Positions 5,995 to 34,011 of a stretch of 64,000 nucleotides of DNA are shown here, one piece after another (the first letter of the stretch is position 1; every line of letters starts with the position of its first letter). The stretch is from Bradyrhizobium sp. B097 (GTDB lineage Bacteria; Pseudomonadota; Alphaproteobacteria; Rhizobiales; Xanthobacteraceae): the NCBI RefSeq assembly GCF_038957035.1, contig NZ_CP152412.1, positions 2,538,501 through 2,602,500 on the forward strand, written 5' to 3'. Position numbers and translations under genes: made by a program. The notes below the pieces were generated by a model. The model did no database searches, had not been told where the DNA came from, and saw nothing but the letters and a program-made list of their open reading frames with translations.

Positions 5995-6009
5995 GCTCGA
6001 CGATCGCGG

Positions 6010-6038: not shown

Positions 6039-6105
6039 GGCATTGCCTCGCCCATAAACATGCTCTGAAGAGAGGATCAGCGGTCTTTCGGCCGAAAAAA
6101 TCAGC

Positions 6106-13956: not shown

Positions 13957-14474
13957 TGGATATCCTCCCGACCCATCAGCAGGGCAAACGGACATGAGGC
14001 TTCTTCCGCATAGGTTGCGGCATGTTCGACCTGGGGACCGATCGGGCGGTATCGATCGGTGCAGGCATGGGCGAGGCCGATGCCGCGGAAGACCGGCTCC
14101 GTCGCTCGGCCCTTCGGCACATGATAGAACACCGGATCATCTGGCGTGCCCCGATAGGACACCAGCATCAGAAGCGGAAATTGGTAACGCTGCGCGAGCG
14201 ACACCATACCCGCACCCATGCTGAGTACGCCGGCATTCTGCACGAGCAGGGCGGTGCGAACGCCACCGAGCCGGCTTCCACAAGCGATCGCAAGCGCCTC
14301 CTCTTCATGGGTTGCGCGCACCAGCGTCATGCCCGGCTCCTGGTCGATGCGAATAAGGATTTCGCCCAGCCAGCTGTCGGGGACAGAGACGACGGTGCCG
14401 AAACCAAGACGCTTGAGCGTATCGAGAACGGCAGACGGCCGATGGGCCTCTAAAGCTTCCGTCGATGTCGTCAT
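13950..14474 (-). CDS. Sulfopyruvate decarboxylase-like, alpha (PYR-domain) subunit
   Basis: 174 residues. VRATHEEEALAIACG holds the PYR-domain glutamate that activates thiamine diphosphate; NAGVLSMGAGMVSLAQRY follows in the manner of ComD and phosphonopyruvate decarboxylase N-terminal halves. It is translationally coupled to the beta subunit and divergent from a polyamine-type ABC operon, with 200 bp of AT-richer DNA between. No other coenzyme M genes are visible, so a catabolic role for a 3-substituted pyruvate is as likely as cofactor synthesis. Confidence 0.8.
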   Translation of the reverse strand: MTTSTEALEAHRPSAVLDTLKRLGFGTVVSVPDSWLGEILIRIDQEPGMTLVRATHEEEALAIACGSRLGGVRTALLVQNAGVLSMGAGMVSLAQRYQFPLLMLVSYRGTPDDPVFYHVPKGRATEPVFRGIGLAHACTDRYRPIGPQVEHAATYAEEASCPFALLMGREDIQW

Positions 14475-14589: not shown

Positions 14590-14674
14590 AAGCAGATGAT
14601 AAGTTTAATTTCATGACCGAGGATTGCAGCTGGAGCCGGGCGCTGCATTCCCTCGCTGGAGGGAGACTGCAGCT

Positions 14675-15688: not shown

Positions 15689-15713
15689 TCCGTTGCCAGA
15701 TCGGTCCCGTATC

Positions 15714-16565
15714 ATGAATCAGCAGCCATTTCTGCGCATCTTCACGGCGCCGGCAACGCTCTGTGCGATCGGGTTCCTCGCGGCGATGGTTGCGGTTCTG
15801 CAATACAGCCTCAGGGCCTACGTGCCGGGATCGCTCGACCCCGGCGGATTTACGCTGGGGAATTTCGCCGACCTTCTGAAACCGCTCTACGCGCGCGTGT
15901 TTCTCGATACCGTCGTCGTGTGCGCGATGACCGCGTTCGTGACATTGATCGTCGGATATCCGCTGGCCTATGCGCTTGTGCGCGTCGAACAGCCGGTCCT
16001 GCGCTCCATCCTTCTCGTGATTGTCGTGACGCCGCTGTTTCTGGGCGAGGTCGTTCGCACTTATGCGTGGATCATCGTCCTTGGCAACAACGGCTTCATC
16101 AATTCCTTGCTGATGTCGCTCGGCCTCATTGGCAAGCCGCTCCAACTGATGTTCACGCCATTCGGCGTTGTGGTTGCTCTCGTGCACGTCACGCTGCCGG
16201 TCATGGTCATCATGCTGGCTGCTGGATTGTCCCATATCGACCGCGACTATTCCCGAGCGGCTGAAAGCCTGGGAGCCGGTCCTATCCGCGTGTTCCTGAC
16301 CGTGACATTGCCGCTGTCCTTGCCCGGCGTGGTCGCCGGCACGACGACGGCATTCGCCTGGACGTTCTCGGCTTTCGCCACGCCGCAGCTGATCGGCGGC
16401 GGCCGCGTCAATATGATCTCCAATCTGGTCTACCAGCTTGGATTTTCGAGCTTCAACTTTCCTTTCGCCGCGACATTGTGCGTGGCTGGGCTGGCTTTGA
16501 CGGCACTCGTGCTTGGACTGCTTCAGCTTGCCTCCCGACCGCTTCAGAACATCGAGGTGCATTGA
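15714..16565 (+). CDS. ABC transporter permease (PotB/PotH type)
   Basis: 283 residues from ATG 15714 (MNQQPFLRIF). About six membrane helices. The EAA loop reads AAESLGAGPIRVFLTVTLPL near residue 183. Its stop shares bases with the next start (TGATG). It forms the transporter pore with the following permease. Confidence 0.9.
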   Translation: MNQQPFLRIFTAPATLCAIGFLAAMVAVLQYSLRAYVPGSLDPGGFTLGNFADLLKPLYARVFLDTVVVCAMTAFVTLIVGYPLAYALVRVEQPVLRSILLVIVVTPLFLGEVVRTYAWIIVLGNNGFINSLLMSLGLIGKPLQLMFTPFGVVVALVHVTLPVMVIMLAAGLSHIDRDYSRAAESLGAGPIRVFLTVTLPLSLPGVVAGTTTAFAWTFSAFATPQLIGGGRVNMISNLVYQLGFSSFNFPFAATLCVAGLALTALVLGLLQLASRPLQNIEVH

Positions 16566-17386
16566 TGATTCCGCGCTCGATCTATCAGAGAGTGCTCGGC
16601 TGGGTCGGATTGCTGACGGTGCTCGTCATCATCGCTTTTCTTGTGCTGCCGGCGGTAGTCGTGACGATCGCCGCGTTCAACGACAAGCCTATCCTGTCAT
16701 TCCCGCCGCAGACCTGGTCGTGGCGATGGTTTGGTCGGGCCCTCGCCTATGAAGACTTCCGGCAAGGGTTCTTCAACGGCCTGATCGTCACGGCCTGGAG
16801 CTCGACGATCGCGCTGTGCGTTGGCGGCATGTTCGCGTTTGTCATCGACCGCTACAAATTTCCGCTCAAGTCCGCCATCGAGGGAATCCTGATTTCGCCC
16901 CTGGTGATACCGCACTTCACGGTCGGGCTCGGGTTTCTCATCCTTGCGGCTCAAGTCGGCCTGAGCCGCGGCTTTGCGGTCGTCGTGATCTGCCACGTTA
17001 TCCTGGTGCTGCCGTTTGTGTTGCGCAGCGTATATGTCTCGCTGAGAAATCTCGACCAGAGTTACGAACACGCTGCTTCGAGCCTCGGCGCCGGACCGCT
17101 TCGCGTCCTGACCACCGTCACCCTGCCGCTGCTGCTGCCCGGGCTCGTCAGCGGCTGGCTGTTCGCAGCGATCCTCTCGTTCAACGAGTTCACAGCCTCG
17201 CTGTTTGTGACCTCGCAGCGGACCCAAACGCTTCCTGTCGCGATGTACAATTACGTGCGCGAGTTCGCCGATCCGTCGATGGCGGCATTGTCGGTCATGT
17301 ATATCGTCGGTACCGCTGCCTTGATCGCTTTTGCCAATGCGTTCCTGGGCCTCGGCAAGGTGCTCAATATCGAGCAGTCTCACTAG
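16565..17386 (+). CDS. ABC transporter permease (PotC/PotI type)
   Basis: 273 residues from ATG 16565, overlapping the previous stop by one base. Six predicted helices. EAA loop AASSLGAGPLRVLTTVTLPL near residue 176, closely like its partner's. The second membrane subunit of the same importer. Confidence 0.9.
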   Translation: MIPRSIYQRVLGWVGLLTVLVIIAFLVLPAVVVTIAAFNDKPILSFPPQTWSWRWFGRALAYEDFRQGFFNGLIVTAWSSTIALCVGGMFAFVIDRYKFPLKSAIEGILISPLVIPHFTVGLGFLILAAQVGLSRGFAVVVICHVILVLPFVLRSVYVSLRNLDQSYEHAASSLGAGPLRVLTTVTLPLLLPGLVSGWLFAAILSFNEFTASLFVTSQRTQTLPVAMYNYVREFADPSMAALSVMYIVGTAALIAFANAFLGLGKVLNIEQSH

Positions 17387-17398
17387 GGAGCACGGATC

Positions 17399-18499
17399 TT
17401 GAAGCCGTCTGCGAATGTTGAAGGGGAACAAACGGCGGTCCATTTCGACGCCGTGACCAAGCGATTTGACGATGTCGTGGCCCTGAACGCCGTTACGCTC
17501 GGCGTCGGTCGCAGCGAGTTCGTGACGCTGCTCGGTCCATCAGGATGCGGCAAGACCACGCTGCTCAAGCTGGCCGCGGGCTTTCTGGGGCCGGACGGCG
17601 GTTCGATCTCGATCGAAGGCAAGCGCGTGAACGACATTCCGACCTACCAGCGCGGCATCGGCATGATGTTTCAGAACTACGCGCTGTTTCCGCATATGAG
17701 TGTGGCAGAAAACGTCGCCTATGGTCTGAAGACGCGGCGGGTCCCCAGGGTCGAGCGGGACAAGCGCGTCGCCGATGCGCTGGCGCTGGTCAAGCTGAAG
17801 GGCATGGAGAACCGCAAGCCCCGGCAATTGTCCGGCGGCCAGCAGCAACGCGTTGCGCTCGCGCGTGCTCTCGTCATCAATCCGACCGTCCTGCTGCTCG
17901 ACGAGCCGTTCTCGGCGCTGGACAAGAGCCTGCGGACCTCGATGCAGGTGGAGCTGCGGGAAATTCAGCGCAAGCTGGGTCTGACCACGATCTTCGTGAC
18001 GCACGATCAAGGCGAGGCCTTGAGCATGTCCGATCGCGTGGCGGTCATGTCCGAAGGCCGTATCAGGCAACTCGGCAGCCCTGTCGACGTCTATCGCAGT
18101 CCGGCGGATCCGTTCGTGGCCGGCTTTGTCGGCGACAACAACAGGCTGCGTGGCCAGCTTGTGAGTATGCAAGCCAAGCAAGCGACCGTCGCGCTTGGCG
18201 ATGCCCTGGTGAATGTGTCGGGCGAGAGCCTGTCCGGGCTCGAGAAGTCCGCGGCGGTTGATCTGTTCGTCCGCCCGGAGCAGTTCAGTGTTGTGGCGCC
18301 CGAGGAGCCGTGCGCCATCAAGGGCAGCGTTGTTGCTCAGATCTACCAGGGTGGCCACGTCGATCTTCAGATCGAATGCGCCGGGGAGCGGCTGCTGGTG
18401 CGATCCCCGGGCGAGCAGGCCGTTCTGCGCTGGCCAATGGGGGCGCCTGTCGGCATTGCCATTCAGACAGATCGGTGCTCGGCATTTCCGGCAGCCTGA
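17399..18499 (+). CDS. ABC transporter ATP-binding protein (PotA type)
   Basis: 366 residues, started at TTG 17399 with GGGAG (17386-17390) eight bases upstream; no other plausible start lies near. Walker A GPSGCGKT, signature LSGGQQQRVALARA, Walker B VLLLDEPFSALD, and VTHDQGEAL with the switch histidine. A C-terminal TOBE domain (residues ~270-360, VRPEQFSVVAPEE) is usual for PotA/FbpC proteins. Confidence 0.92.
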   Translation: MKPSANVEGEQTAVHFDAVTKRFDDVVALNAVTLGVGRSEFVTLLGPSGCGKTTLLKLAAGFLGPDGGSISIEGKRVNDIPTYQRGIGMMFQNYALFPHMSVAENVAYGLKTRRVPRVERDKRVADALALVKLKGMENRKPRQLSGGQQQRVALARALVINPTVLLLDEPFSALDKSLRTSMQVELREIQRKLGLTTIFVTHDQGEALSMSDRVAVMSEGRIRQLGSPVDVYRSPADPFVAGFVGDNNRLRGQLVSMQAKQATVALGDALVNVSGESLSGLEKSAAVDLFVRPEQFSVVAPEEPCAIKGSVVAQIYQGGHVDLQIECAGERLLVRSPGEQAVLRWPMGAPVGIAIQTDRCSAFPAA

Positions 18500-18651: not shown

Positions 18652-19212
18652 TTGATTCAGCCCCAATCGATCACGGCAGCCGAGGCGATCAGCACGTATA
18701 TCGAGGCAAAGGACCGAAACCTGCCCCAGCTCATGAAGCGTGCATTCGTGCAGGATTGTGAGCTCCAGATGCAGCTCCTGACCGACGCAATCTCTTTTCC
18801 AAGTTCCGCTCACGGCTTGGAGAGCGTGACCGACGTTCTCGTACGAAACTTTGGATTGCAGTATGAAAATGTGCGCACCTTCTGCCTCTCGCGCCCTGAG
18901 CCCGATCGCCTTCCACAGTTTCAATGCGACTGGCTGGTGGGGATGTCAAACAAGTCCGACGGCGACGTTCGCGTCGGTTGCGGTGAGTACATCTGGGATT
19001 TTGATGCCGCCGGAGACGGTCGCGTCAAGCGGCTGCTCATCAAGATTGAGTTCATGTGTGTGCTGCCGGCCAGCTATCAGACGTCTGTCCTGCAATGGCT
19101 TTCGGCTATCCCCTATCCCTGGTCGTCATACAGTGAGGCGCGCGCAGGTATGCCCTCAATCGACGCCTTGATGCCGATTGCTCGATTTCTGCGGCGCGAC
19201 GCGCGCAACTGA
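18652..19212 (+). CDS. NTF2-like (SnoaL-fold) protein, function unknown
   Basis: 186 residues, start TTG 18652 preceded by GGAGAGA. The pattern of an N-terminal helix (AEAISTYIEAKDRNLPQLMKRAF) followed by alternating strands (RVGCGEYIWDF, RLLIKIEFMCVL) resembles the nuclear-transport-factor-2 cone fold used by small isomerases, lyases and ring-hydroxylase beta subunits. It follows the PotA-like gene by 150 bp and may belong to the same locus. No catalytic residues can be assigned. Confidence 0.6.
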   Translation: MIQPQSITAAEAISTYIEAKDRNLPQLMKRAFVQDCELQMQLLTDAISFPSSAHGLESVTDVLVRNFGLQYENVRTFCLSRPEPDRLPQFQCDWLVGMSNKSDGDVRVGCGEYIWDFDAAGDGRVKRLLIKIEFMCVLPASYQTSVLQWLSAIPYPWSSYSEARAGMPSIDALMPIARFLRRDARN

Positions 19213-19744: not shown

Positions 19745-22597
19745 ATGGCGTGGCGAAAAGCAATTGCCGTGGACGAGCTGAAGCCCAACGGCGTGACGAG
19801 TGTCGAGATCGACGGCAGGCTCGTGGCGCTCTATCTCCTTGATGGTGAGGTCTTCGCTACGCATGGCATATGCACCCACGCGCTAGCCTTTCTTGCTGAT
19901 GGATTCGTTGACGGCAGCACAATCGAGTGTCCGCTGCACCAGGGCATGTTCGATATCAGATCGGGAAAAGCGCTCTGCTCTCCGGTCACGCAAGACCTTG
20001 AGACCTACTCGGCCAAGGTCGAGGAGGGCGAGGTGTTTGTCGATCTCGATGGAGATAAGAAGGCTGTGCCCAAGCATCAGGCGGAGGTCTGCGCCCAGAG
20101 GGGATCGCCTTCCCGTCGGGCAGTCGTCGTTGTGGGCGCCGGTCAGGCGGCTGCAGCGGCAATTCGCAGCATGCGAGCTAGTGGCTTCGCCGGCACGGTA
20201 GATCTCGTCGGAAGGGAGGAGCACCTGCCGTACGAGCGTCCACCGCTTTCAAAGGATATTCTCCTTGGAAAGGCGTCGATCGAATCCTGTGGGCGGCTGG
20301 CTGAAGCCGATGTGGCGGCCCTCGACGTCAAGACCCATCTCGGGTGCTCCGTTACCCGGATCGATTCAGCTGCCAGGATCGCGTTTCTCAGTAACGGGAC
20401 TAAGCTTCGATATGATGCGCTTCTGCTGGCGACCGGCGGAGTTCCGCGGCGACTCTCCATTGCCGGCGCCGATCTGCCTGGAGTGCACTACCTGCGCACG
20501 ATCGAGGATTCTAGCTCCATCAGGCAGTCGCTCGCAACTGCAAGGCGTCTCGTCATCGTCGGCGGTGGCTTTATTGGTCTTGAACTTGCTTCGGTCGCCG
20601 CGACGCTTGGGGTCGCCACCGTCCTCCTCGAACGCGAAGCCGAACTGATGGCCCGCGTGCTGCCTCCATCATTGGGGCGCAGCTTTCGCTCTCTTGCCGA
20701 GCGCCACGGCGTCACCGTTTTGCGGGGCGTGCAGGTCCAGGATATCCGCCGCGACGGTGAAGGTCTGGTGGTCAATACCTCCGCCGGCGCTTTCGCTGCA
20801 GATACCATCTGCGTCGGTGTCGGGTTGGCCCCCGAGACGGAACTGGCAGCCGCGGCCGGCTGCGCGGTGGATGGCGGGATCGTTGTCGACGCAGAGCAAA
20901 AGACCAACATCGCGGGAATCTGGGCTGCGGGCGACTGCGCGTTGCATTGCCGTCCGGTCAGGGGGCGCTCCCGCCGTTTTGAGAGTTGGCACAATGCGGA
21001 GCAGCAAGGTGCAGCCGCAGGACAATCGATTGCCGGGGGGCCGCCGAGCACGGATGCGCAGGCTCCCTGGTTCTGGACCGACCAGTTTGGCCTGAACATC
21101 CAGATACTCGGGGTCTCGTCACCGGGCGACAAGGTCGCGCTCACAGGTCGCGATGGCGAACCTGGGGCCGTCTACCGCACGATTGATCCGGACACCGGAC
21201 GGCTTACCAGCGTGGTCGCGTTTTCCGATCCTGCGGCGATACGGCAGGCGCGCAAGGAGCTCGAAAACCCTGACATGTTCGATATCGCCAAGGTTTCCGC
21301 TGCTCTGCTCACGAGAGACGGCAATGAGGAGAATACCCAGGTGGTGAATGAGAGGTTGGTGACGACGACGTCGAAGCAATACGTCTGGCCAGCCGAGGGG
21401 CTCACCAGGGTGCCTGATTGGGTCTACACGGACGACGACATCTACCGGCGCGAAGTCGAAAAGATCTTTCACGGACGGACCTGGAATTACGTGGCGCTGG
21501 AGAGCGAGATTCCCGGCGTTGGCGATTTCATCCGTTCCAATGTGGGACCGACGCCTGTCGTGGTATCGCGCGCCGAAGACGGTTCGATCAACGTCTTCGA
21601 GAACCGCTGTGCTCATCGCGCGGCCGAGTTCTGTCGCGAGCTGAGCGGCAACGCCAAGGAATTCGTCTGTCCCTATCATCAGTGGTCCTACGACCTGAAG
21701 GGCAATCTGGCGGGGGTGCCGTTCCGCCGAGGGGTCGACGGCAAGGGCGGAATGCCGCGCGATTTCAAGAATGCAGACCATGGGCTGAGGCAGCTGAAGG
21801 TCACGACCCATCGTGGTGTCGTGTTTGCTTCGTATTGTGCCGACATGGAGCCGTTGGCCGAATATCTTGGACCGGAGATTCTCCGCGAGTTCGAGGCGAC
21901 CTTCGATGGGCGCAAGCCTAAGGTGCTCGGTCACTATCGCCACAGCCTTCCGGGAAATTGGAAGCTCTATCACGAGAATCTCAAGGACCCGTATCACGCA
22001 ACGTTGCTGCACACGTTTCTGGTGACGTTCGGCCTGCTGGTGGCCGGCAACAAGTCGTCGATGATCGCCGACCCCTCCGGCCGGCACGGCGTGATGGCAT
22101 CGGCAAAGTCGGACGTCAGCAAGCTCGACAACGACACCAAGAAGGAGATGCGCGCCTACAAGGAAGGCATGCAGCTCGAGGAGCCGCGCTTCATGGATTT
22201 CGTCAATGAGTTCGACAGTCCCTGGTCGGTGACCATGACGACGATCTGGCCCAATCTCATCGTGCAGCGGGAGATGAACACCCTGGGCGTTCGGCAGATC
22301 GTTCCGACGGGACCGAACGAGTTCATCATGAAGTGGACCATGTTCGGCTTCGAGGGTGACGATGAGGAGATGACCCGCCATCGGTTGCGGCAAGGCAATC
22401 TGATGGGACCGGCAGGCTTCCTTGGCCTCGAAGACAACGAAGCCATCAAGTTCGTGCAGGACGGCATGCTCGCGGTCCCCGACGGCCAACATGTGGTCGA
22501 ATTGGATCCCGGGGTCATCGGCACCGCAGACACCTTGATCTCCGAGGCGTCGATACGCGCGATGTATCAGCATTGGCGCAGCGCGATGGAACTCTAA
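19745..22597 (+). CDS. Three-in-one Rieske oxygenase: ferredoxin + ferredoxin reductase + alpha subunit (candidate 6-hydroxypicolinate hydroxylase)
   Basis: A single 950-residue frame. Residues 1-105 are a Rieske ferredoxin (Cys43-x-His45 and Cys62-x2-His65). Residues ~124-525 are a FAD/NADH ferredoxin reductase (VVVGAGQAAAAAI at 127; second nucleotide motif VIVGGGFIGLELA; AAGDCAL). Residues ~533-950 are a ring-hydroxylating oxygenase alpha subunit with its own Rieske centre (Cys622-x-His624, then CPYH) and mononuclear iron ligands in DPYHATLLH (Asp748, His751, His756). These three parts are normally separate proteins. No stop or frameshift separates them. The beta subunit follows directly. 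Context suggests hydroxylation of a hydroxypyridine carboxylate; this substrate is inferred. Confidence 0.85.
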   Translation: MAWRKAIAVDELKPNGVTSVEIDGRLVALYLLDGEVFATHGICTHALAFLADGFVDGSTIECPLHQGMFDIRSGKALCSPVTQDLETYSAKVEEGEVFVDLDGDKKAVPKHQAEVCAQRGSPSRRAVVVVGAGQAAAAAIRSMRASGFAGTVDLVGREEHLPYERPPLSKDILLGKASIESCGRLAEADVAALDVKTHLGCSVTRIDSAARIAFLSNGTKLRYDALLLATGGVPRRLSIAGADLPGVHYLRTIEDSSSIRQSLATARRLVIVGGGFIGLELASVAATLGVATVLLEREAELMARVLPPSLGRSFRSLAERHGVTVLRGVQVQDIRRDGEGLVVNTSAGAFAADTICVGVGLAPETELAAAAGCAVDGGIVVDAEQKTNIAGIWAAGDCALHCRPVRGRSRRFESWHNAEQQGAAAGQSIAGGPPSTDAQAPWFWTDQFGLNIQILGVSSPGDKVALTGRDGEPGAVYRTIDPDTGRLTSVVAFSDPAAIRQARKELENPDMFDIAKVSAALLTRDGNEENTQVVNERLVTTTSKQYVWPAEGLTRVPDWVYTDDDIYRREVEKIFHGRTWNYVALESEIPGVGDFIRSNVGPTPVVVSRAEDGSINVFENRCAHRAAEFCRELSGNAKEFVCPYHQWSYDLKGNLAGVPFRRGVDGKGGMPRDFKNADHGLRQLKVTTHRGVVFASYCADMEPLAEYLGPEILREFEATFDGRKPKVLGHYRHSLPGNWKLYHENLKDPYHATLLHTFLVTFGLLVAGNKSSMIADPSGRHGVMASAKSDVSKLDNDTKKEMRAYKEGMQLEEPRFMDFVNEFDSPWSVTMTTIWPNLIVQREMNTLGVRQIVPTGPNEFIMKWTMFGFEGDDEEMTRHRLRQGNLMGPAGFLGLEDNEAIKFVQDGMLAVPDGQHVVELDPGVIGTADTLISEASIRAMYQHWRSAMEL

Positions 22598-22603: not shown

Positions 22604-23131
22604 ATGCGGGCTATTCAGATGTTGGCCACCGATCCCACCTACACGGCACAAATTCACCAGCTGCTGCTGCGGAATGCAATCGAGCAGTTCAACTGCCAGT
22701 ACGCGGCCGCCCTTGACGAACAGCGGCTCTCGGACTGGAGCGAGATGTTCACGCCGGACGCAAGCTATGTCGTTTTGTCGCGCGAGAATGAAGATCGCGG
22801 CCACCCGGTCGGTCTCATCTATTGCGAGAATAGGGGCATGATTCGCGATCGGGCGTTCGCGCTGGAGAAAACCGCCATGTTTGCGCCGCGGTACCTTCGT
22901 CACTTGATCAGCAATTTGCAGTTGCTCGGCGAAGATGAGCACGGAAACATCAAGGCTCGGGCGAACTATATCGTCCTGCAGGTCTTGTTCGATCGCCCTG
23001 ACGCGACCATTCACCAGATCGGAACCTATCACGACGTGTTCCGGCGTTCCGACGAGGGCCTCAAGCTCAAGCAGCGCCGCTGCGTTTACGACAATCTGCT
23101 CGTTCCCAACGCGCTTTGCATTCCGGTGTAG
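22604..23131 (+). CDS. Ring-hydroxylating oxygenase beta subunit
   Basis: 175 residues, NTF2-like fold. LLRNAIEQFNCQYAAALDEQRLSDWSEMF matches the family's opening helix; PRYLRHLISN and RRCVYDN are typical later segments. ATG 22604 and ATG 22619 are both possible starts; the gene begins six bases after the fusion gene. It is a structural partner of the alpha domain in an alpha3beta3 oxygenase. Confidence 0.9.
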   Translation: MRAIQMLATDPTYTAQIHQLLLRNAIEQFNCQYAAALDEQRLSDWSEMFTPDASYVVLSRENEDRGHPVGLIYCENRGMIRDRAFALEKTAMFAPRYLRHLISNLQLLGEDEHGNIKARANYIVLQVLFDRPDATIHQIGTYHDVFRRSDEGLKLKQRRCVYDNLLVPNALCIPV

Positions 23132-23211: not shown

Positions 23212-25590
23212 ATGAACACGGACGGGGCGGTCGGTGAAGGTATCGGGGCGCGAGCGCGGCGCAAGGAGGATGCGCGGCACTTGCGCGGCCGCGGCCGGTT
23301 CGTCGGTGACATCCACATGCCTGGGCTACGGGAAGTGGCATTCCTGCGCAGTCCAGTCGCGCATGCGAGGATCCTGTCGAAGACAAAATCGCCGGATTAC
23401 GCCGACGATACCTTCTTCTCCGAAGATCTGGTCGGGGTCGCGCCGATCGTTACGAGATCTTCCATTCCCGGGTACAAGGTCTCGCAATATCCGATCCTGG
23501 CCACCGACAAGGTGCGCTTTGTCGGCGAACCCGTTGCCATGTGCGTGGCGAAAAGTCGCGCGATCGCGGAAGACCTGATCGAGCAAGTCGAGATTGGCTA
23601 CGACGAACTGCCGGCGATCGCTTCTTGCGCGGGCGGTCGCCGTGACAACGCCGAACTTCTGCATCCGGAGTGGGGCGATAACCTGTTCCTGGAGACCTTC
23701 TTCGACAGCGGCGTCGACGAGGTTATTGCCAGGGCGCCGATCTCGGTCGAGCTCGAGATGTCATGCGCGCGACAGACGATGCATCCCATGGAAGGCAAGG
23801 GCGTGCTGGCCTGGTGGGATGATCGCGCCGATCAGCTCGTGGTGCACACCTCCACCCAGGTGCCGCACCTGATAAGGGCCGGGCTCGCCGAGTGTCTCGG
23901 GATTGCGCAAGCGCAAATCAGGGTCGCCCCGCCGGACGTCGGAGGCGGCTTCGGCTACAAGTGCCTGTTGCAGCCCGAGGAGGTTGCCGTCGCCTGGCTT
24001 GCTGCGACCTTCAAGAAGCCATTCCGCTGGACCGAGGATCGCAGGGAGCATCTCGTCGCCGGCGCCAACGCGCGGCAGCACGAATACCATATCAAGGCCT
24101 ATGCCGACACGCAGGGGCGGCTTCTCGCGCTGGACGCGGAAGTGTCCGTCGACACCGGCGCTTACTCCGTGTGGCCGTTCACCGCCTGCCTGGAGGCCGC
24201 GCAGGCCGGAGGAAACCTGCCCGGACCGTATCATCTGGCTGCGTACCGGTGCCGTACCTATTCGGTTGCGACCAACAAGCCGCCTTTCGCGCCCTATCGC
24301 GGTGTTGCGCGGCCGGGTGTTTGCTTTGCGATGGAGCAGGTCATTGACGCGATCGCGCAGAAGGTCGGTCGCGAAGCATGGGAAGTTCGCCGGGACAATC
24401 TGGTTCCGGCTTCGGCGATGCCGTACACCAACATCACGAACAAGCATTACGACTCCGGTGACTACCCGGAGGCGCTCGTTGCCGCCAAGAACATGATCGG
24501 TCTCGAGGCATTCCGCGCAGGGCCCAAACGCGACGACAGGGGACGTTACCTCGGCATCGGGTTTGCAAGTTTCACGGAGCAGTCCGCGCACGGCACCAAG
24601 GTGTTTGCGTCCTGGGGATTGCCGCTGGTGCCGGGGTTCGATCAGGCGCACGTGAAGCTGACGCCGGACGGCGCGCTGGAGGTCGCGGCGGGCATCCATA
24701 CCATCGGGCAGGGCCTGGAAACGACGCTGGCGCAGATTGCTCACGAACAGACGCGTGTTCCGCTCAAGCACATCAGGGTCAGGCTCGGCGATACGGCGAT
24801 GACGCCGTTCTCGACCGGTGCCTACGCATCGCGCGGGATCGTCATGTCGGGCGGTGCGGTCTCGCGGGCCGCCGAGGTCGTTGCAGGCCGGATCAAGTCG
24901 ATTGCCGCCCATCTGCTGCAAGTCGAGCCGGCCGCCGTCGAATTTGCCGAGGGGCGGATCTTTGCGGCGAATGCCAGTGTCTCCTACGAGGATGTCGGAC
25001 GCGCCTGGTATCTCCGGCCGGACCAGCTTCCCGAGACGGTGAACACGGCAGGCCTTGAGGCGACCGAAGGATACAAGCCGGACGTCGATACGGGCGTGTT
25101 TTCTTACGCCACGCACGCCGTTCGGCTCGCAGTTGACGCCGAGACCGGTCTCGTTGAGATCCTCGACTATGCGATCGTCGAGGATTGTGGACGCATGGTC
25201 AATCCGATGATTGTCGAGGGGCAGACCTATGGAGGGGCGGCGCAGGGTATCGGCACTGCGCTGTTTGAAGAGAGCCCGTACGACGACAACGCTCAACCGC
25301 TCGCCTCGACGCTGCTCGATTATATTCTGCCTGGTCCGACCGAGCTGCCCAGCTTTCGCATCGACCATCGCGAGACGCTATCGCCTTACTCGGCTCACGG
25401 AATCAAGGGCGTCGGGGAGGGCGGCGCGATTGCGCCGCCTGCTGCGATCGTCAACGCGATCAACGATGCCTTGTCGCCGCTCAACGCCGCGATACGGCAG
25501 GTGCCCGCGAGCCCACGGCGGATCCGCGAGGCAATTCGGCGCGCGCGCCCGCCGCAGGCGACAGGCCCTGAAGCGGGCGTCACGCGATGA
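23212..25590 (+). CDS. Molybdenum hydroxylase large subunit (xanthine dehydrogenase/CoxL family; PicA-like)
   Basis: 792 residues from ATG 23212 with GAGAGGATC upstream. Shows VGGGFGYKC (Mo-pterin contact), APYRGVARP in the substrate-side loop, and GIKGVGEGGAI near the C-terminus with the catalytic glutamate of the family. Lacks the CoxL AYRCSFR active-site loop, so it is a hydroxylase rather than CO dehydrogenase. It inserts a water-derived hydroxyl into an N-heterocycle; with the downstream pathway genes, picolinate to 6-hydroxypicolinate is the best guess. Overlaps the FAD subunit by four bases. Confidence 0.88.
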   Translation: MNTDGAVGEGIGARARRKEDARHLRGRGRFVGDIHMPGLREVAFLRSPVAHARILSKTKSPDYADDTFFSEDLVGVAPIVTRSSIPGYKVSQYPILATDKVRFVGEPVAMCVAKSRAIAEDLIEQVEIGYDELPAIASCAGGRRDNAELLHPEWGDNLFLETFFDSGVDEVIARAPISVELEMSCARQTMHPMEGKGVLAWWDDRADQLVVHTSTQVPHLIRAGLAECLGIAQAQIRVAPPDVGGGFGYKCLLQPEEVAVAWLAATFKKPFRWTEDRREHLVAGANARQHEYHIKAYADTQGRLLALDAEVSVDTGAYSVWPFTACLEAAQAGGNLPGPYHLAAYRCRTYSVATNKPPFAPYRGVARPGVCFAMEQVIDAIAQKVGREAWEVRRDNLVPASAMPYTNITNKHYDSGDYPEALVAAKNMIGLEAFRAGPKRDDRGRYLGIGFASFTEQSAHGTKVFASWGLPLVPGFDQAHVKLTPDGALEVAAGIHTIGQGLETTLAQIAHEQTRVPLKHIRVRLGDTAMTPFSTGAYASRGIVMSGGAVSRAAEVVAGRIKSIAAHLLQVEPAAVEFAEGRIFAANASVSYEDVGRAWYLRPDQLPETVNTAGLEATEGYKPDVDTGVFSYATHAVRLAVDAETGLVEILDYAIVEDCGRMVNPMIVEGQTYGGAAQGIGTALFEESPYDDNAQPLASTLLDYILPGPTELPSFRIDHRETLSPYSAHGIKGVGEGGAIAPPAAIVNAINDALSPLNAAIRQVPASPRRIREAIRRARPPQATGPEAGVTR

Positions 25591-26426
25591 AGTCGTCGGC
25601 TTTCGAGCTCAAGCATGCACGGACCCTCGGTGAGGCAACCGAACTCCTCGCCGCTGCCGATGGCAACGCCAAGCTGTTGGCTGGCGGCCAGTCGCTGGTC
25701 CCGATGTTGAACCTGAGACTGGCCCGGCCCAAGCTGCTGGTCGACATCAAGCGCGCGTCCGGCTTTCGCGAGCTCGCGGCAGACGACCGGGTGTTCTCGA
25801 TCGGTGCCGGATGGACCCATGCCGAGATCGAGGATGGTGTGCTGGAGGATCCGACGCGCGGGCTGCTGCGATCAGTCGCACACGGAATTGCTTACCGAGC
25901 GGTGCGCAATCGCGGCACCATGGGCGGAAGCCTGGCGCATGCCGATCCGGCCGCAGACTGGGTCTCGACGCTGGCGGCACTGGGGGCCACGATCGTCGTC
26001 CAGGGCGGCGACGAACGGCCGAAGCGCCATGCCGCCGAGAGCTTCGTCGACGGAGCGTTTGCGACCAAGCTCGGCGAGAGCGAAGTGATTTCCGCGATCG
26101 AGGTGCCGCGGTTGTCGGCAGATGCATCCTGGGCCTATCACAAGATTTGCCGCAAGACCGGTGAATTCGCCAATGCGATCGGCGTTGTCGTTCTCGATCC
26201 GAAGACGGGCCTGCAGCGCGTGCTTGCCGGTGCGACCAGCGGTTCACCGGCGCTGCTGCCCAATACCGCCGTACGTCTCGTCGAGGCTGGGCCGCGTGCG
26301 GCATGCGAGATCGTTGCAGAGGAAATCCGCGCCGTTCTGCCGGATCTTGATCTCGACACGCAGGAATTACACGCGGTCGCGGTTCGCCGGGCTCTGGCGA
26401 CCTTGGGTGAAGGACAGCGCCGATGA
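25587..26426 (+). CDS. Molybdenum hydroxylase FAD-binding subunit (CoxM family)
   Basis: 279 residues. AGGQSLVPMLNLRLARPKLLVDI and VRNRGTMGGSLAHADPAADW are the two FAD-binding signatures of the CoxM/XDH medium subunit. It passes electrons from the iron-sulfur subunit to an acceptor. Four-base overlaps on both sides show tight co-translation with the large and small subunits. Confidence 0.92.
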   Translation: MKSSAFELKHARTLGEATELLAAADGNAKLLAGGQSLVPMLNLRLARPKLLVDIKRASGFRELAADDRVFSIGAGWTHAEIEDGVLEDPTRGLLRSVAHGIAYRAVRNRGTMGGSLAHADPAADWVSTLAALGATIVVQGGDERPKRHAAESFVDGAFATKLGESEVISAIEVPRLSADASWAYHKICRKTGEFANAIGVVVLDPKTGLQRVLAGATSGSPALLPNTAVRLVEAGPRAACEIVAEEIRAVLPDLDLDTQELHAVAVRRALATLGEGQRR

Positions 26427-27562
26427 CGCAGGTGTCGATGACGGTCAACGGCGGCGCCGTCGTGGCGGATGTTGAGCCGCGCACGCTCTTGGCGGACTTC
26501 TTGCGCGGCGATCTGCAACTCACCGGAACGCATCTCGGATGCGAGCAGGGTGTCTGTGGCGCCTGTACCGTTGTGCTCGACGGCAGGATCCAGCGGTCGT
26601 GCATCACATTTGCCGCCGATTGCAATGGCGCCAGCGTCACCACGATCGAGGGCTTTGACGATGATCCAACCATGCAGGAACTGCGTGAGGCGTTTTCCGA
26701 GCACCACGCCCTGCAATGCGGCTTTTGCACACCGGGAATGCTGACGACTGCACGAGATATCGTGCTTCGGCTCGGCGATATCGATGAGCGCGCTCTGCGC
26801 GAGGAGCTCTCCGGCAATCTCTGCCGATGCACCGGTTATGTCGGGATCGTCGCAGCGGTCAAGAAAGTCGCCGCAGGGAAGAAGCCCGACGTCGCGGCGG
26901 CTGTGGCTCCGGTCGTTGGCAGGTTTGAGGGCTCAAGGTTGCCGCCGGCGCCGTCGTCTCCCCAGACAAATGGCCCGGTAACGCGCACGTCTGTTCCAGC
27001 CATGGCGCCATCGGTCGGTGGATCCGCAGGCAGCACGTCAATTGAGGAACGGGTGCGAGTGGCTGCGCCGGCCGAAAAGGTTTGGAGCCTGCTTTCGGAC
27101 CTCCAACGGGTGGTCCCGTGTGTGCCCGGAGCCGAGATCACATCACTCGACGGAGAAGATCTTGTCGGAAAGGTCAGGATTTCTCTGGGCCCGATCAAGG
27201 TCGCTTTCAACGGCCAGGCGAAGGTCGGGATGGATCCCGCCAAGCGGGAGGGGTGGCTGACCGGCCGCGGGCGCGATGCCGGGCAAGGCTCGTCCGCCGA
27301 GGGCAGCGCGCGCTGGACCGTCATCGCTGATGGGGCAAGCGCGTCCCTGATTGCGGTCGTCCTGACCTGGAAGCTGAGTGGACCGCTCGCTCAGTTCAAC
27401 CGAGCCGGACTGGTGCACGACGTCGTGCGCCGGTTGGCGGCGACATTCGCCGAGAATCTCGAAGCCGCCATTACCGGGGCGGCTCCGCCTCGCCGAAAGG
27501 CGCTCGGTGGCCTCGGATTGGTCTGGTCCGTCATCAAGGCGCGCTTGTTCTCACGGCGATAG
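26423..27562 (+). CDS. Molybdenum hydroxylase 2Fe-2S subunit fused to a CoxG-like domain
   Basis: 379 residues. Residues 1-155 are the usual small subunit with two 2Fe-2S clusters (CEQGVCGACTVVLDG, CGFCTPGM, CRCTGY). A Pro/Ala-rich linker follows (~155-195). Residues ~200-379 are a CoxG/SRPBCC domain (RVRVAAPAEKVWSLLSDLQRVVPCVPGAE). CoxG proteins are normally separate accessory proteins implicated in maturing or membrane-anchoring Mo hydroxylases; a C-terminal basic/hydrophobic stretch here would suit membrane contact. The fusion is unusual compared with 150-170-residue small subunits. Confidence 0.88.
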   Translation: MTQVSMTVNGGAVVADVEPRTLLADFLRGDLQLTGTHLGCEQGVCGACTVVLDGRIQRSCITFAADCNGASVTTIEGFDDDPTMQELREAFSEHHALQCGFCTPGMLTTARDIVLRLGDIDERALREELSGNLCRCTGYVGIVAAVKKVAAGKKPDVAAAVAPVVGRFEGSRLPPAPSSPQTNGPVTRTSVPAMAPSVGGSAGSTSIEERVRVAAPAEKVWSLLSDLQRVVPCVPGAEITSLDGEDLVGKVRISLGPIKVAFNGQAKVGMDPAKREGWLTGRGRDAGQGSSAEGSARWTVIADGASASLIAVVLTWKLSGPLAQFNRAGLVHDVVRRLAATFAENLEAAITGAAPPRRKALGGLGLVWSVIKARLFSRR

Positions 27563-27651: not shown

Positions 27652-28197
27652 CTATTCGTCCCGGCCGGCCGTCGACTTCCGCCGTCCGGATGCCGAATTG
27701 GTGTCGGGCAGGCTGTATTTGCTGTTGCCCTCGATCAATTCGGTCACCATCGCGAGAAATGCTGCCCTGAACTCGGGCCGCAGGGGCGCGAGGAAGCGAT
27801 CCTGCGCACGGCGCATGCTGTCGTACATCTTGTCGGCGACCGCCTCGCCCTCCTTGGTCAGGAAGGCCACCATCGAGCGCCGGTCGGTTTGGCTGCGTTC
27901 GCGCCGCACCAGGCCGCGTTCCGACAGGCGGTTCAGAACATCTGCTACATTTGTGCGATCGATGCCCACCTCACCACCAAGCGTGACCTGATCGATGCCA
28001 GGGTTGTTGAGTAGCGTCGTGATCAGGCCGTACTGCACCGGCGTGATGCCGAACTCCTGGCACTCCTCAAGAAAGATCGCGGAGTGGATCTGATGCAGGC
28101 GGCGGACCAGGTAGCCCGGGCGCGACGCCAGGGGCATCCGCGCCATTTCCACCTTGACCTCGGACCTTGTGGAATTGGTGGATGATTGCTTCTTCAA
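27652..28197 (-). CDS. picR: MarR-family transcriptional regulator (PicR-like)
   Basis: 181 residues, start TTG 28197 preceded by AAGGA on the minus strand. The winged-helix core is GITPVQYGLITTLLNNPGIDQVTLGGEVGIDRTNVADVLNRL, with the wing RRERSQTDRRSMVAFLT. Both ends carry charged tails. It is divergent from the binding-protein/lower-pathway operon and is the only regulator in the cluster, so it is the natural candidate to bind the shared TGTATACTGA motif. A MarR repressor is known for picolinate clusters, relieved by a hydroxylated intermediate; the same control here is inferred. Confidence 0.82.
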   Translation of the reverse strand: MKKQSSTNSTRSEVKVEMARMPLASRPGYLVRRLHQIHSAIFLEECQEFGITPVQYGLITTLLNNPGIDQVTLGGEVGIDRTNVADVLNRLSERGLVRRERSQTDRRSMVAFLTKEGEAVADKMYDSMRRAQDRFLAPLRPEFRAAFLAMVTELIEGNSKYSLPDTNSASGRRKSTAGRDE

Positions 28198-29655: not shown

Positions 29656-30624
29656 ATGTCGTCCAGAATTCGCAAGATCGCGCTCGAAGAGCACTTCACG
29701 GCGCCCGGCTTCGAGGAATATTCGAAGGTCTTCACGAAGCACATGGACTCCGCTGCGCAATCCAGGCTGTCGTCCCAACTCAGGGACTTCGATGAATTGC
29801 GGCTCGGTGAGATGGACCGGGCCGGGATCGACAAGGTCGTTCTGTCGCAGACCGGACCAAGCGTTCAGGCCGAAACCAACATAGACGTCGCCATCCGGCG
29901 CGCCGCCGAAGGCAATGACTACTTGGTGCAGCAGATTCAGCGGCATCCGGCCCGCTATGCTGGCTTCGCATCGCTGCCGATGCACTCCCCGAAGGCAGCC
30001 GCAAGCGAGCTGACCCGTGCCGTCGAAGTTCTTGGCTTCAAGGGCGCCCTGGTCAACGGTCATACGGGCGGGACCTACTATGACGATCCGGCCTACGACG
30101 CGTTTTGGGAGCGGATGCAGCATTTGGACGTGCCGCTCTACTTGCATCCGACGGACCCAAGTCCGGTTCCGAAAGCCTATGACGGCCATCCAGAACTCAC
30201 CGGCGCGGTGTGGGGGTGGGGCGTCGAGACCGCGACCCATGCGCTCAGACTGCTGTTCGGCGGAGTCTTCGATCGCTTTCCGCGGTTGAAGATCATCCTC
30301 GGCCACATGGGTGAGGGGCTGCCGATGCTGCTCTGGCGGTTCGACAGCCGCTTCGCCGTGTACCCGCATGGCGTTCGGCTTGCGCACAAGCCGTCCGAAT
30401 ACTTCGGACGCAACATCTTCATCACGACGTCAGGCGTCTGTTCGTCTGCAGCGCTTGCCTGCGCGCTTGCCGAGATGGGCAACGCCGCCGTCATGTTTTC
30501 GGTCGACTATCCCTACGAGTCGACGGCAATCGCCGCGGATTTCATCGAGCGCGCGCCAATATCCGAGGATGTCCGCGCGCAGGTCTGCTCGCGCAACGCC
30601 GAACGCATTCTGAAGCTGGCCTGA
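29656..30624 (+). CDS. picC: Amidohydrolase-2 family decarboxylase (PicC-like, 3,6-dihydroxypicolinate decarboxylase)
   Basis: 322 residues. IALEEHF at the N-terminus, YLHPTDPSP, ILGHMGEGLP and FSVDYPYE are the metal-ligand and active-site blocks of gamma-resorcylate/2,3-dihydroxybenzoate decarboxylases. These enzymes remove a carboxyl group next to a ring hydroxyl without oxygen. Placed directly before 2,5-dihydroxypyridine catabolic genes, conversion of 3,6-dihydroxypicolinate to 2,5-dihydroxypyridine is the simplest assignment. An ACMSD-like reaction on an opened ring is less likely because the dioxygenase step comes later. Confidence 0.8.
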   Translation: MSSRIRKIALEEHFTAPGFEEYSKVFTKHMDSAAQSRLSSQLRDFDELRLGEMDRAGIDKVVLSQTGPSVQAETNIDVAIRRAAEGNDYLVQQIQRHPARYAGFASLPMHSPKAAASELTRAVEVLGFKGALVNGHTGGTYYDDPAYDAFWERMQHLDVPLYLHPTDPSPVPKAYDGHPELTGAVWGWGVETATHALRLLFGGVFDRFPRLKIILGHMGEGLPMLLWRFDSRFAVYPHGVRLAHKPSEYFGRNIFITTSGVCSSAALACALAEMGNAAVMFSVDYPYESTAIAADFIERAPISEDVRAQVCSRNAERILKLA

Positions 30625-30643: not shown

Positions 30644-31444
30644 GTGCAGAAGGTCTATCGCATCGGCCAGATCGTTCCGAGCTCGAATACGACCATGGAG
30701 ACTGAAATTCCTGCGATGCTCAATGCGCATTCGCTCGCGCACGGCACGCGCTTCACCTTTCATTCGAGCCGGATGCGGATGAAGACGGTCAAGAAGGAAG
30801 AGCTCGCGGCGATGGACGGCGAGTCCGATCGCTGCGCGCTCGAGCTCTCGGATGCGCGCGTCGACGTCCTCGGCTACGCCTGCCTGGTCGCGATCATGAG
30901 CATGGGGAAGTCGTACCACCGCGTCTCGCAGGAGCGGCTCCATGGTCGCACGGTCGAGAACGGCGCGCCGGCTCCCGTTGTAACCAGCGCCGGTGCCCTG
31001 GTTGATGCGCTGCACGTCATCGGCGCCAAGCGCATTGCCGTCGTCGCGCCGTACATGAAACCGCTGACGCAGCTCGTCATCGACTACATCGAGCATGAGG
31101 GGATCAAGGTCTCCGATTCCCGCGCGCTCGAGATTCCGGACAACATCTTGGTCGGTCGACACGATCCGGCGAACCTGCCGAAGATCGTGGCGGGGATGGA
31201 CCTGAAGGACGCCGACGCGGTCGTCTTGTCAGCGTGTGTGCAGATGCCGTCGTTGCCTTCAATCGCCGAGGTCGAGGCAAGAACCGGCAAGCCCGTGATC
31301 ACCGCCGCGGTCGCGACCACTTACGCCATGCTGACGGCGCTCGACCTGAACACGCGGGTACCGGGCGCGGGCGCATTGCTCTCGGGCGCTTTCGGCAAGA
31401 ATGCAGCGGCCGCTCCTAACGCAAAACTGCAGGCCGCCGGATGA
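30644..31444 (+). CDS. picG: Maleate cis-trans isomerase (PicG/NicE-like)
   Basis: 266 residues, start GTG 30644 after GAGGAG. Asp/Glu racemase superfamily: IVPSSNTTMETEIPAM near the N-terminus, YACLVAIM with the first cysteine and SACVQMPSLPS with the second, as in maleate isomerases. It turns maleate into fumarate, the last step to the TCA cycle. The stop overlaps the next start by four bases. Confidence 0.86.
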   Translation: MQKVYRIGQIVPSSNTTMETEIPAMLNAHSLAHGTRFTFHSSRMRMKTVKKEELAAMDGESDRCALELSDARVDVLGYACLVAIMSMGKSYHRVSQERLHGRTVENGAPAPVVTSAGALVDALHVIGAKRIAVVAPYMKPLTQLVIDYIEHEGIKVSDSRALEIPDNILVGRHDPANLPKIVAGMDLKDADAVVLSACVQMPSLPSIAEVEARTGKPVITAAVATTYAMLTALDLNTRVPGAGALLSGAFGKNAAAAPNAKLQAAG

Positions 31445-32292
31445 GTACATTCCGATACGGCGCAAACATCCAGGCCAACGGCGTGCGGCTGCACTATCTG
31501 CTCTACGGGCAGGCGCAAGCGGGGCGTGATCCGGTCATCATCCTGCCGGGCATCACCAGTCCGGCGATCACTTGGGGGTTTGTAGCCGAGCGGTTTGGAC
31601 GCCAGTTCGAGACCTACGTGCTCGATATCCGAGGCCGGGGACTGTCGCAATCTGGTCCCACACTCGACTACAGCCTGGACGCGCAGGCCGCCGATCTGGC
31701 CGAGCTGGCTGCGGCGTTGAAACTGCCGCGATATACCGTGGTTGGCCACTCGATGGGGGCCCGTATTGCGGTTCGTGCGGCACGGCGCGGATTGCCCGGA
31801 CTGGCCAGACTGGTCCTGGTGGATCCGCCGGTCTCGGGACCGGGTCGGCGCGCCTATCCGGCGAAGCTCGATTGGTACGTCGATTCCATTCGGCTCTCGG
31901 TTGCCGGTTGCAACGCCGAAAAGATGCGGGTGTTCTGCCCGACATGGACCGAGGATCAACTGAATCTGCGTGCGGAGTGGCTGCACACCTGCGACGAGCG
32001 CGCGGTGCGCGAGAGCTTTGACGGATTCCACAATGACGACATTCACAGCGATCTCGGACGGGTCACCGTTCCAGTCCGTCTGATCGCTGCAGGACGTGGC
32101 GACGTCATCCGCGACGAGGACATCGCCGAAATCCAGCGGCTGTTGCCGAGTGCTTCGATCACGCGCGTCGTCGACGCGGGGCATATGATTCCATGGGATG
32201 ACGAGGCGGGGTTCTACGCCGCCTTCGAGGAGTTTCTTGGCGCTCGTCTGAACGCCGCAATCAGCAAGGAGAAGCAACATGTCGGTCAGTGA
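31441..32292 (+). CDS. picE: N-formylmaleamate deformylase (PicE/NicD-like alpha/beta hydrolase)
   Basis: 283 residues. Nucleophile elbow GHSMGA (serine near residue 103), oxyanion strand PVIILPGITSP, acid GRGDVIRDEDI, and C-terminal histidine in VVDAGHMIPWDD. Family fit plus position between the maleate isomerase and 2,5-dihydroxypyridine dioxygenase genes point to removal of the formyl group from N-formylmaleamate. Confidence 0.83.
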   Translation: MSTFRYGANIQANGVRLHYLLYGQAQAGRDPVIILPGITSPAITWGFVAERFGRQFETYVLDIRGRGLSQSGPTLDYSLDAQAADLAELAAALKLPRYTVVGHSMGARIAVRAARRGLPGLARLVLVDPPVSGPGRRAYPAKLDWYVDSIRLSVAGCNAEKMRVFCPTWTEDQLNLRAEWLHTCDERAVRESFDGFHNDDIHSDLGRVTVPVRLIAAGRGDVIRDEDIAEIQRLLPSASITRVVDAGHMIPWDDEAGFYAAFEEFLGARLNAAISKEKQHVGQ

Positions 32293-33337
32293 TCACGATC
32301 TGATACAGGCCTGGAAGCAGGTTCTCTCGCTTTCCAAGCTGGAGCGAGGCCAGCTCGTCACCGTGCTCACCAGCTCGTCGACGCATCCGCAGACCCTGTC
32401 GACCGCGATTCTCGCGGCTGCGTCGATGGGCGCAATCGTCAACCGGCTCGATCTGCTTCCGGTCAATGGCGAGAAGGCTTTGAGCCGCGACTCGCTGGCC
32501 TATCTCGGGACAACGCCGCTGACGGGGAATCGCGCAGCGATCGCGGCACTGAAGGAGAGTGACCTCGTCCTCGACCTGATGACCCTGCTGTTCTCCCCCG
32601 AACAGCACGAGATCCTGAAGGCGGGCACGAAGATCCTGCTGGCTGTCGAGCCGCCGGAAGTCCTGGTTCGCATGGTGCCGACAATGGCCGATCGTGCGCG
32701 CGTCGCCGCTGCGAGCGCGAAGCTTGGCAAGGCGAAGGAGATGCATGTGACGTCGCCGGCCGGCACGGACGTCCGCTTCAAGCTCGGACAGTTCCCGGCC
32801 ATCAGCGAATATGGCTTCGTCGACGAGCCCGGGCGGTGGGATCATTGGCCGAGCGGCTTCGCCTTGACCTGGGCAAATGAAGGCGAGGCCGATGGAACGA
32901 TCGTGATGGAGCGGGGCGATATCCTGCTCCCGATGAAGTCCTACATTCAGGATCGTATCCACTTTGGGATCGAGAAGGGCTTTGTGACCTCGATCGAGGG
33001 CGGCGTCGATGCCGAGATCCTGAGCGAGTACATGGCCTCGTACAACGATCGAGACGCATATGCGATGTCGCACATCGGTTGGGGGCTGCAGCCGCGAGCC
33101 AAGTGGTCGACGCTCGGTCTCTATGACCGGGAGGCCACGATCGGCATGGACGCGCGGGCGTTCGAGGGCAATTTCCTGTTCTCGTTCGGCCCGAACAACG
33201 AGGCCGGCGGGAGCCGCACAACGGCCTGCCATATCGATATTCCGATGCGGAATTGCACGATTGCGCTCGACGGGGAGGAGGTCGTCCGAAACGGAAAGGT
33301 GCTCGATGGAGGACCGGTTCGTGAGGCCGCCGAATGA
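32279..33337 (+). CDS. picD: 2,5-dihydroxypyridine 5,6-dioxygenase (PicD/NicX family)
   Basis: 352 residues, start ATG 32279 after AAGGAG. It belongs to the aminopeptidase-M29-like fold that includes NicX. His265 (MSHIGWG), His318 and Asp320 (CHIDIP) fall at the residue numbers I recall for the iron ligands of Pseudomonas NicX. It opens 2,5-dihydroxypyridine with O2 to give N-formylmaleamate. An M29 peptidase is the alternative annotation, but the neighbours argue against it. It overlaps the preceding gene by 14 bp and the next by 4. Confidence 0.88.
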   Translation: MSVSDHDLIQAWKQVLSLSKLERGQLVTVLTSSSTHPQTLSTAILAAASMGAIVNRLDLLPVNGEKALSRDSLAYLGTTPLTGNRAAIAALKESDLVLDLMTLLFSPEQHEILKAGTKILLAVEPPEVLVRMVPTMADRARVAAASAKLGKAKEMHVTSPAGTDVRFKLGQFPAISEYGFVDEPGRWDHWPSGFALTWANEGEADGTIVMERGDILLPMKSYIQDRIHFGIEKGFVTSIEGGVDAEILSEYMASYNDRDAYAMSHIGWGLQPRAKWSTLGLYDREATIGMDARAFEGNFLFSFGPNNEAGGSRTTACHIDIPMRNCTIALDGEEVVRNGKVLDGGPVREAAE

Positions 33338-34011
33338 CCGACGACAAGGCAACATATCGCCGGCAAGGCTTCGGTCAGGAGCTGGATCTCGACGCTCCAT
33401 TCGGGCTGCTGATCATCGATTTCGTCAACGGATTTCTCGATCCCGCCGTTTTCGGCGGCGGCAACATCGCTGCCGCGATGGAGAGGACGGTCGGATTGCT
33501 GGGCGAAGCGCGCCGGAGAAGGTGGCCGGTTGCGCATTCGAGAATCGTATTCGCCGACGACGATGCCGACCGCAACGTATTCGCGATGAAGGTGCCGGGG
33601 CTGCTCACGCTGAAGGAGTCTTCTTCCAACAGTGCGATCGTTCCGCAGCTTGCGCCGAAGCCGGGCGAGCTGGTCGTTCGAAAGACCGTGCCGTCGGCAT
33701 TCTTCGCGACAGGGCTGGGGCCATGGCTGACGCAGCGCGGCGTCCGCACGCTTGTGGTCGCTGGTTGCGTGACGAGCGGTTGTGTCCGGTCGAGCGTCGT
33801 TGACGCGATGTCGCTGGGCTTCCTTCCGCTCGTGGTCAGGGATTGCGTCGGGGACCGTGCGATCGGTCCGCACGAGGCGAATTTGTTCGACATGTCGGAG
33901 AAGTACGCGGTCGTCATGGACCTCGCCGATACCATGAAGCTCGTGGAAGCCAGGACTGCTGGTTCTGCCGTTGTGAGTGGCAGCGCAGGTACTCGCCATC
34001 GGATCCAATAG
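33334..34011 (+). CDS. picF: Maleamate amidohydrolase (PicF/NicF-like, isochorismatase fold)
   Basis: 225 residues. The cysteine-hydrolase triad is visible: Asp in LLIIDFVNGF, Lys in VVRKTVPSAFF, Cys in GCVTSGCVRSS. It splits maleamate into maleate and ammonia. Last gene of the operon, followed by a strong terminator. A carbamoylsarcosine-hydrolase-like role is the generic alternative. Confidence 0.86.
   Translation: MTDDKATYRRQGFGQELDLDAPFGLLIIDFVNGFLDPAVFGGGNIAAAMERTVGLLGEARRRRWPVAHSRIVFADDDADRNVFAMKVPGLLTLKESSSNSAIVPQLAPKPGELVVRKTVPSAFFATGLGPWLTQRGVRTLVVAGCVTSGCVRSSVVDAMSLGFLPLVVRDCVGDRAIGPHEANLFDMSEKYAVVMDLADTMKLVEARTAGSAVVSGSAGTRHRIQ

Follow-up and report, generated by a model that had tools for sequence, protein, structure and literature searches.

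A conserved Rieske oxygenase gene that joins ferredoxin, reductase and oxygenase alpha in one frame and carries a predicted internal start for a free alpha subunit

Can the ferredoxin, the reductase and the catalytic alpha subunit of a Rieske oxygenase be encoded as one protein, and would that protein be the only product of its gene? The question is raised by a gene of Bradyrhizobium sp. B097 that lies in the window, the stretch of 64,000 nucleotides analysed here, which belongs to a 9.25-Mb genome in one contig. The frame opens with ATG at 19745 and runs through 950 uninterrupted codons to a stop at 22595-22597; the two other forward frames over 19745-22597 contain 22 and 24 stops. An earlier note had read three components in this frame from the sequence, and the order of Pfam domains (Rieske at 3-88, with two Rieske stretches in all, Pyr_redox_2 at 126-422, Reductase_C at 442-513 and Ring_hydroxyl_A at 731-949) agrees with it. 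The gene and its parts are:

19745..22597, + strand: fused gene for ferredoxin, reductase and oxygenase alpha (950 aa, 103.2 kDa)
19745..20050, + strand: Rieske [2Fe-2S] ferredoxin domain, residues 1-102 (C43/H45/C62/H65), Pfam Rieske, ligands invariant
20051..20113, + strand: linker 1, residues 103-123, disordered
20114..21292, + strand: GR-type FAD/NADH ferredoxin reductase domain, residues 124-516
21293..21379, + strand: linker 2, residues 517-545, disordered
21380..22594, + strand: Rieske oxygenase alpha domain, residues 546-950 (C622/H624/C642/H645; D748/H751/H756/D897; R850)

All parts were said to retain their cofactor ligands, and they do so well beyond this one gene: across 32 aligned fused homologues, C43/H45/C62/H65, G131/G133 and G273/G275/G278 are invariant, as are C622/H624/C642/H645, D748/H751/H756 and D897 in the alpha part. 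The C-terminal part has the N-terminal CxH...CxxH cluster and the Ring_hydroxyl_A domain of a Rieske oxygenase alpha subunit, and D748, H751, H756 and D897 provide the two histidines and one carboxylate of the mononuclear iron triad together with the bridging Asp, roles that we assume to carry over from naphthalene dioxygenase. The ferredoxin of that enzyme (2qpz_A) matches residues 2-101 (E 1.4e-28). An AlphaFold2 model built from 60 rows has a mean pLDDT of 87.6, and its only values under 50 are in the two linkers, at 110-118 and 525-544; it replaced one from 32 rows (mean pLDDT 66.9) whose alpha part was poor. Matches to the alpha and reductase folds of the model fill both structure-search lists, and no ferredoxin fold appears among the 50 matches listed by VIA and the 50 listed by Foldseek, so the ferredoxin domain rests on sequence and Pfam.

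How does this arrangement compare with known systems? Two-domain fusions of a Rieske ferredoxin and a reductase, which we take to be of the AIFM3 type, join the first two domains in the same order, without the oxygenase domain; a 506-aa one-frame ferredoxin/reductase fusion of about 36% identity occurs in this genome. CYP116B-like P450s carry catalyst and electron supply in one chain, with heme, other redox domains and no beta subunit. Self-sufficient P450s such as CYP116B are named in reference titles of a 2025 review, the accessible passages of which state that no self-sufficient Rieske oxygenase system has been identified yet (PMC12445004). Our searches of open-licence papers found no self-sufficient or fused Rieske oxygenase either; the earlier note, too, knew of none described with this domain order. 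The gene's probable subfamily is that of the salicylate 5-hydroxylase, anthranilate and terephthalate enzymes; in the salicylate 5-hydroxylase NagGH (7c8z), unlike the fused gene, alpha is a separate protein with separate redox partners. The combination of a Rieske ferredoxin with a GR-type reductase lacking its own [2Fe-2S] cluster is that of type IV, whose three-component members likewise pair a [2Fe-2S] ferredoxin and GR-type reductase with an alpha/beta oxygenase, but in the types set out in the available text of Kweon et al. 2008 (PMC2358900) the components are separate proteins, whereas here they share one frame. Components are also separate in the accessible part of a riboflavin paper (PMC12746152). 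The flavodiiron-rubredoxin-reductase of Trichomonas, as described in an extract of PMC9364112, is another natural three-component redox fusion, with an unrelated catalytic domain.

The three-component fusion holds up: it is conserved among homologues and maintained by selection. We collected 117 loci, including the best 80 of 179 loci from a contig scan, and classed them as fused, split or other. A single frame with the same three-domain order, for which the earlier note had proposed a search, occurs in 57 of them, and these reduce to 45 distinct genes (54-100% identical) after removal of 12 whose last 2700 nt are the same as those of another locus. The same three parts lie in the same order as separate genes in 28 loci (by title, 27 betaproteobacterial and one alphaproteobacterial MAG), with the beta gene directly after alpha in 27 and after a gap in L115; the remainder comprises six ferredoxin-alpha fusions without reductase and 26 others. 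Caballeronia sp. SBC2, which had aligned in one piece, has stops between the parts and is counted as split. Fused genes among the best 80 of the 179 loci include those of Bradyrhizobium, Rhodopseudomonas, Xanthobacter, Azospirillum, Rhodovarius, Roseomonas, Oceanibaculum, Alloalcanivorax and Saccharospirillum. A full-length match free of inner stops occurs in 18 of the 265 genomes of the genus, and all 18 are fused; this listing shows no split orthologue, the alpha match next in rank being 51% identical. Among 385 sampled genomes of the class, six (this one included) have a full-length match, and another six match in alpha alone (59-70%), one of them being the ordinary split operon L125.

Could the fusion nevertheless be an artefact of assembly or sequencing? 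DNA of high G+C content often holds long chance open frames, and L125 shows how far this can go, with an open frame of 1489 aa around its split operon. Independent assemblies from many genera agree on the fusion, however, and each short linker lies between stretches of homologous coding sequence, which also led us to reject a chance open frame in G+C-rich DNA. We therefore regard an artefact as practically out of the question. Of the two findings that the earlier note said would count against it, neither is seen: there is no frame artefact, and all 18 full-length matches within the genus are fused. The linkers make the same point. Among the 45 genes, linker 1 occurs in 13 lengths (17-34 residues) and linker 2 in 15 (23-58 residues), all in phase. 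Mean pairwise identity is 0.59 in the ferredoxin, 0.15 in linker 1, 0.52 in the reductase, 0.18 in linker 2 and 0.81 in alpha, and pN/pS among seven close genes is 0.19, 0.97, 0.20, 0.46 and 0.034, respectively. The linkers drift, yet neither stop nor frameshift parts the domains.

A branch with support of 100 in the alpha tree separates the 45 fused genes from the 28 split ones, and ferredoxin-alpha and alpha-only loci are nested among the fused genes (L006-L008 were omitted from a first alpha tree; L006-L008, L026-L034 and L037 from the tree with support of 100). Trees that unite the six ferredoxin-alpha fusions in one clade are rejected (p-AU 0.000135), and so are trees in which the three-part fusions alone form a clade (p-AU 6e-5). 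One ancient fusion, followed by repeated loss of the reductase, would be the simplest reading. In the reductase tree, two fused genes (L060 and L062) fall with 25 split genes (support 95), on a long branch and with odd composition, which would fit either an exchange of the reductase or a second origin of the fusion. The two-part ferredoxin-alpha fusions without reductase (L086-L090 and L092) occur in metagenome-assembled genomes. L065, from a record titled Mesoflavibacter (Bacteroidota), has a fused gene that groups with Rhodospirillaceae, and the record is probably mislabelled or a mixed metagenome bin.

What, then, would the enzyme act on? The genes that follow the fused gene suggest an answer:

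22604..23131, + strand: oxygenase beta subunit (175 aa), Pfam Ring_hydroxyl_B, E 6e-20, starting 7 nt after the fused-gene stop
23212..25590, + strand: molybdopterin large subunit, PicA-like
25587..26426, + strand: FAD subunit, PicA-like
26423..27562, + strand: [2Fe-2S] subunit joined to a CoxG domain, PicA-like
27652..28197, - strand: MarR-family regulator
29656..30624, + strand: Amidohydrolase_2 decarboxylase, PicC-like
30644..31444, + strand: maleate cis-trans isomerase, PicG-like (4fq7, E 2e-112)
31441..32292, + strand: alpha/beta hydrolase, N-formylmaleamate deformylase, PicE-like (4l0c 'Deformylase', E 2e-95)
32279..33337, + strand: 2,5-dihydroxypyridine 5,6-dioxygenase, PicD-like (7cn3, E 5e-121)
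33334..34011, + strand: isochorismatase-family amidase, PicF-like (3ot4, E 6e-89)

Given the beta-subunit gene, a second chain is presumably required for activity. A beta gene lies downstream of the fused gene in all 39 loci checked (the fused loci numbered L038 and above, of the 57); within the flanks, of up to 4 kb, 23 of the 39 show one or more pic-type neighbours and 16 show none. The accessible text of PMC10142695 lists, for picolinate degradation, PicA (molybdenum hydroxylase), PicC (decarboxylase), PicD (2,5-dihydroxypyridine dioxygenase), PicE (deformylase), PicF (amidase) and PicG (maleate isomerase), and assigns the step from 6-hydroxypicolinate to 3,6-dihydroxypicolinate to PicB, a product of four genes. 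PicA and PicC to PicG all have homologues beside the fused gene, and PicB is the only pic step otherwise without a homologue in the window, so the fused gene corresponds to PicB. Compared by description, the 6-hydroxypicolinate monooxygenase of Alcaligenes faecalis JQ135 (picB1B2B3B4; extracts of PMC10142695) has pathway neighbours and kinds of components in common with the Bradyrhizobium locus, and its first three genes are one gene in Bradyrhizobium. Membership of a picolinate cluster, which had gone unnoticed in the earlier note, predicts the substrate, and the likely reaction is the 3-hydroxylation of 6-hydroxypicolinate. In the part of PMC9060491 available, R309 of terephthalate dioxygenase binds carboxylate and is said to be conserved throughout a cluster that includes a picolinate enzyme; R850 of the fused chain aligns with it and is invariant in the 32 fused rows.

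It is unlikely, in our judgement, that the substrate is an aryl carboxylate other than 6-hydroxypicolinate, even though alpha is distant from characterised enzymes (45-50% to NagG) and the closest NCBIfam model, AndAc, scores only 402.9 bits for a cut-off of 750; the adjoining pic homologues speak against it, and the split relatives, too, sit among pic-type genes. Anthranilate 1,2-dioxygenase was itself considered and rejected, the scores lying below all four curated cut-offs (AndAa 268.9/650, AndAb 103.5/150 and AndAd 139.8/230 bits, in addition to AndAc).

Other features of the neighbourhood are recorded here. The joined [2Fe-2S]-CoxG subunit of the molybdenum hydroxylase (26423-27562) is a second fusion in the pic-type cluster. 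Upstream of the fused gene, 14624-18499 (+) encodes a polyamine-type ABC importer (binding protein, two permeases and ATPase) that could take up the pathway substrate, and 18652-19212 (+) is a 186-aa frame without a Pfam or NCBIfam match that adjoins the fused gene in L039 as well (tblastn, 91%). Farther away, 21-3019 (+) holds genes for F420 synthesis: a CofC-like gene, which scores 114 bits against a cut-off of 105, and after it a fused CofG-CofH FO synthase with 1141 bits against 1018. Two adjacent genes at 13327-14474 (-) resemble sulfopyruvate decarboxylase (beta and alpha subunits), with scores under the curated cut-offs. L095 has two adjacent alpha-beta pairs at 4001-8048, 79% and 37% identical to the alpha of the window.

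The second part of the question concerns the junction between reductase and alpha, where two further features lie:

21326..21331, + strand: GAGGAG, Shine-Dalgarno-like site before the internal start
21341..21346, + strand: two in-frame GTG codons (residues 533-534) at which a free alpha (417-418 aa, 47 kDa) is predicted to start

The earlier note had let the oxygenase part begin near residue 533, which is the internal GTG at 21341. Linker 2 holds an in-frame ATG, GTG or TTG in all 45 genes, and what is new here is that this conserved start is accompanied by a strong ribosome-binding site (Shine-Dalgarno match of -6 kcal/mol or lower) in 43 of the 45 distinct genes, which are related and so do not represent 43 independent events; L065 is a fused gene without such a site. 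The median is -8.6 at the junction and -6.4 at the N-terminal start, where 26 of 45 genes reach -6 or lower; for 952 other in-frame ATG codons it is -2.6, and 9.8% of them reach that level. Linker 1 has a site of this strength in four of the 45 genes, and 21 control windows of the same width have one in 0-30 of 45. The best-placed internal start codon is ATG in 33 genes and GTG in 12. The site falls in all three codon phases (20, 17 and 7 genes; one gene has none) and is thus spelled by different amino acids. When codons were drawn at random with the protein kept, the mean was -6.0, as against -8.3 observed (six of 45 genes individually at p<0.05; combined p 0.008), and part of the site therefore follows from the glutamate-rich linkers.

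We read the junction site as a maintained start of a free alpha of about 47 kDa, and on these sequence signals the gene probably yields both this protein and the 103-kDa fused chain. Somewhat doubtful, though worth weighing, is the alternative that the gene yields the fused chain alone, its internal start being a relic of a three-gene operon or a Shine-Dalgarno-like pause site that aids sequential folding of the domains. In three-gene relatives, alpha starts 11-36 nt past the reductase stop, from which the signal could have been inherited, and the recoding effect is modest. However, in 27 split operons the alpha start lies 23-27 codons before the WP motif with a Shine-Dalgarno median of -6.6, whereas in the fused genes (L077, with no motif match, omitted) the internal start lies a median of 14 codons (8-33) before it with a median of -8.7: the signal is stronger in the fused genes and its position has moved, which is not what a frozen relic would show.

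The opposite alternative, that free alpha does the work and the fused chain arises as a minor read-through of little effect, seems to us improbable. It would account for an internal site that is usually stronger than the N-terminal one, and for a plasmid of Paracoccus seriniphilus (L118, 9001-11814) on which the frame is open over 937 codons from the ferredoxin on, while the NCBI annotation starts alpha at an internal codon and the gene table lists only that 415-aa protein. Yet no separate ferredoxin or reductase gene is listed in the cluster, purifying selection acts on the ferredoxin and reductase domains (pN/pS 0.19-0.20), and the phase has survived many changes in linker length. The Paracoccus case also shows that automatic annotation can hide fused genes of this kind.

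Taken together, the evidence makes it rather probable that the gene encodes the fused redox components of a type-IV-like, PicB-type Rieske oxygenase, with the second start also giving free alpha. NADH would reduce the FAD of the middle, reductase domain, and the ferredoxin domain, on its flexible linker of about 20 residues, would accept the electrons singly. The second linker, of about 29 residues, would give this arm enough reach for the Rieske cluster of its own alpha or of one next to it in an alpha3beta3 hexamer; from that cluster, electrons would pass to the mononuclear iron, which activates O2. Within the trimer, the ferredoxin arm may hand its electrons to an adjacent alpha rather than pass them on inside its own polypeptide, the route given in the earlier note. 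If the reductase-alpha junction, with its own ribosome-binding site and start codon, also gives rise to free alpha, hexamers would mix armed and bare alpha subunits, which would set the number of reductase arms per enzyme, and built-in electron arms may be present on only some subunits. The earlier interpretation of a single, self-contained chain is thereby amended: the fusion stands as real, conserved and selected, but the beta gene leads us to expect a second chain, and a free alpha is predicted beside the fused one.

According to passages of PMC12445004, multi-component electron supply is a major obstacle to the use of Rieske oxygenases, and artificial fusions are called for. Natural, evolution-tested fusions offer linker lengths, a domain order and possibly a rule for subunit mixing to copy, and they allow a direct test of whether tethering improves the coupling of electrons to product. 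The fused genes also fill an annotation gap in picolinate degradation. We give about even chances to the broader view that they represent a widespread natural class of self-wired Rieske oxygenases, in which one gene would supply armed and bare alpha subunits and set the number of arms per hexamer, and from which some lineages may since have lost the reductase.
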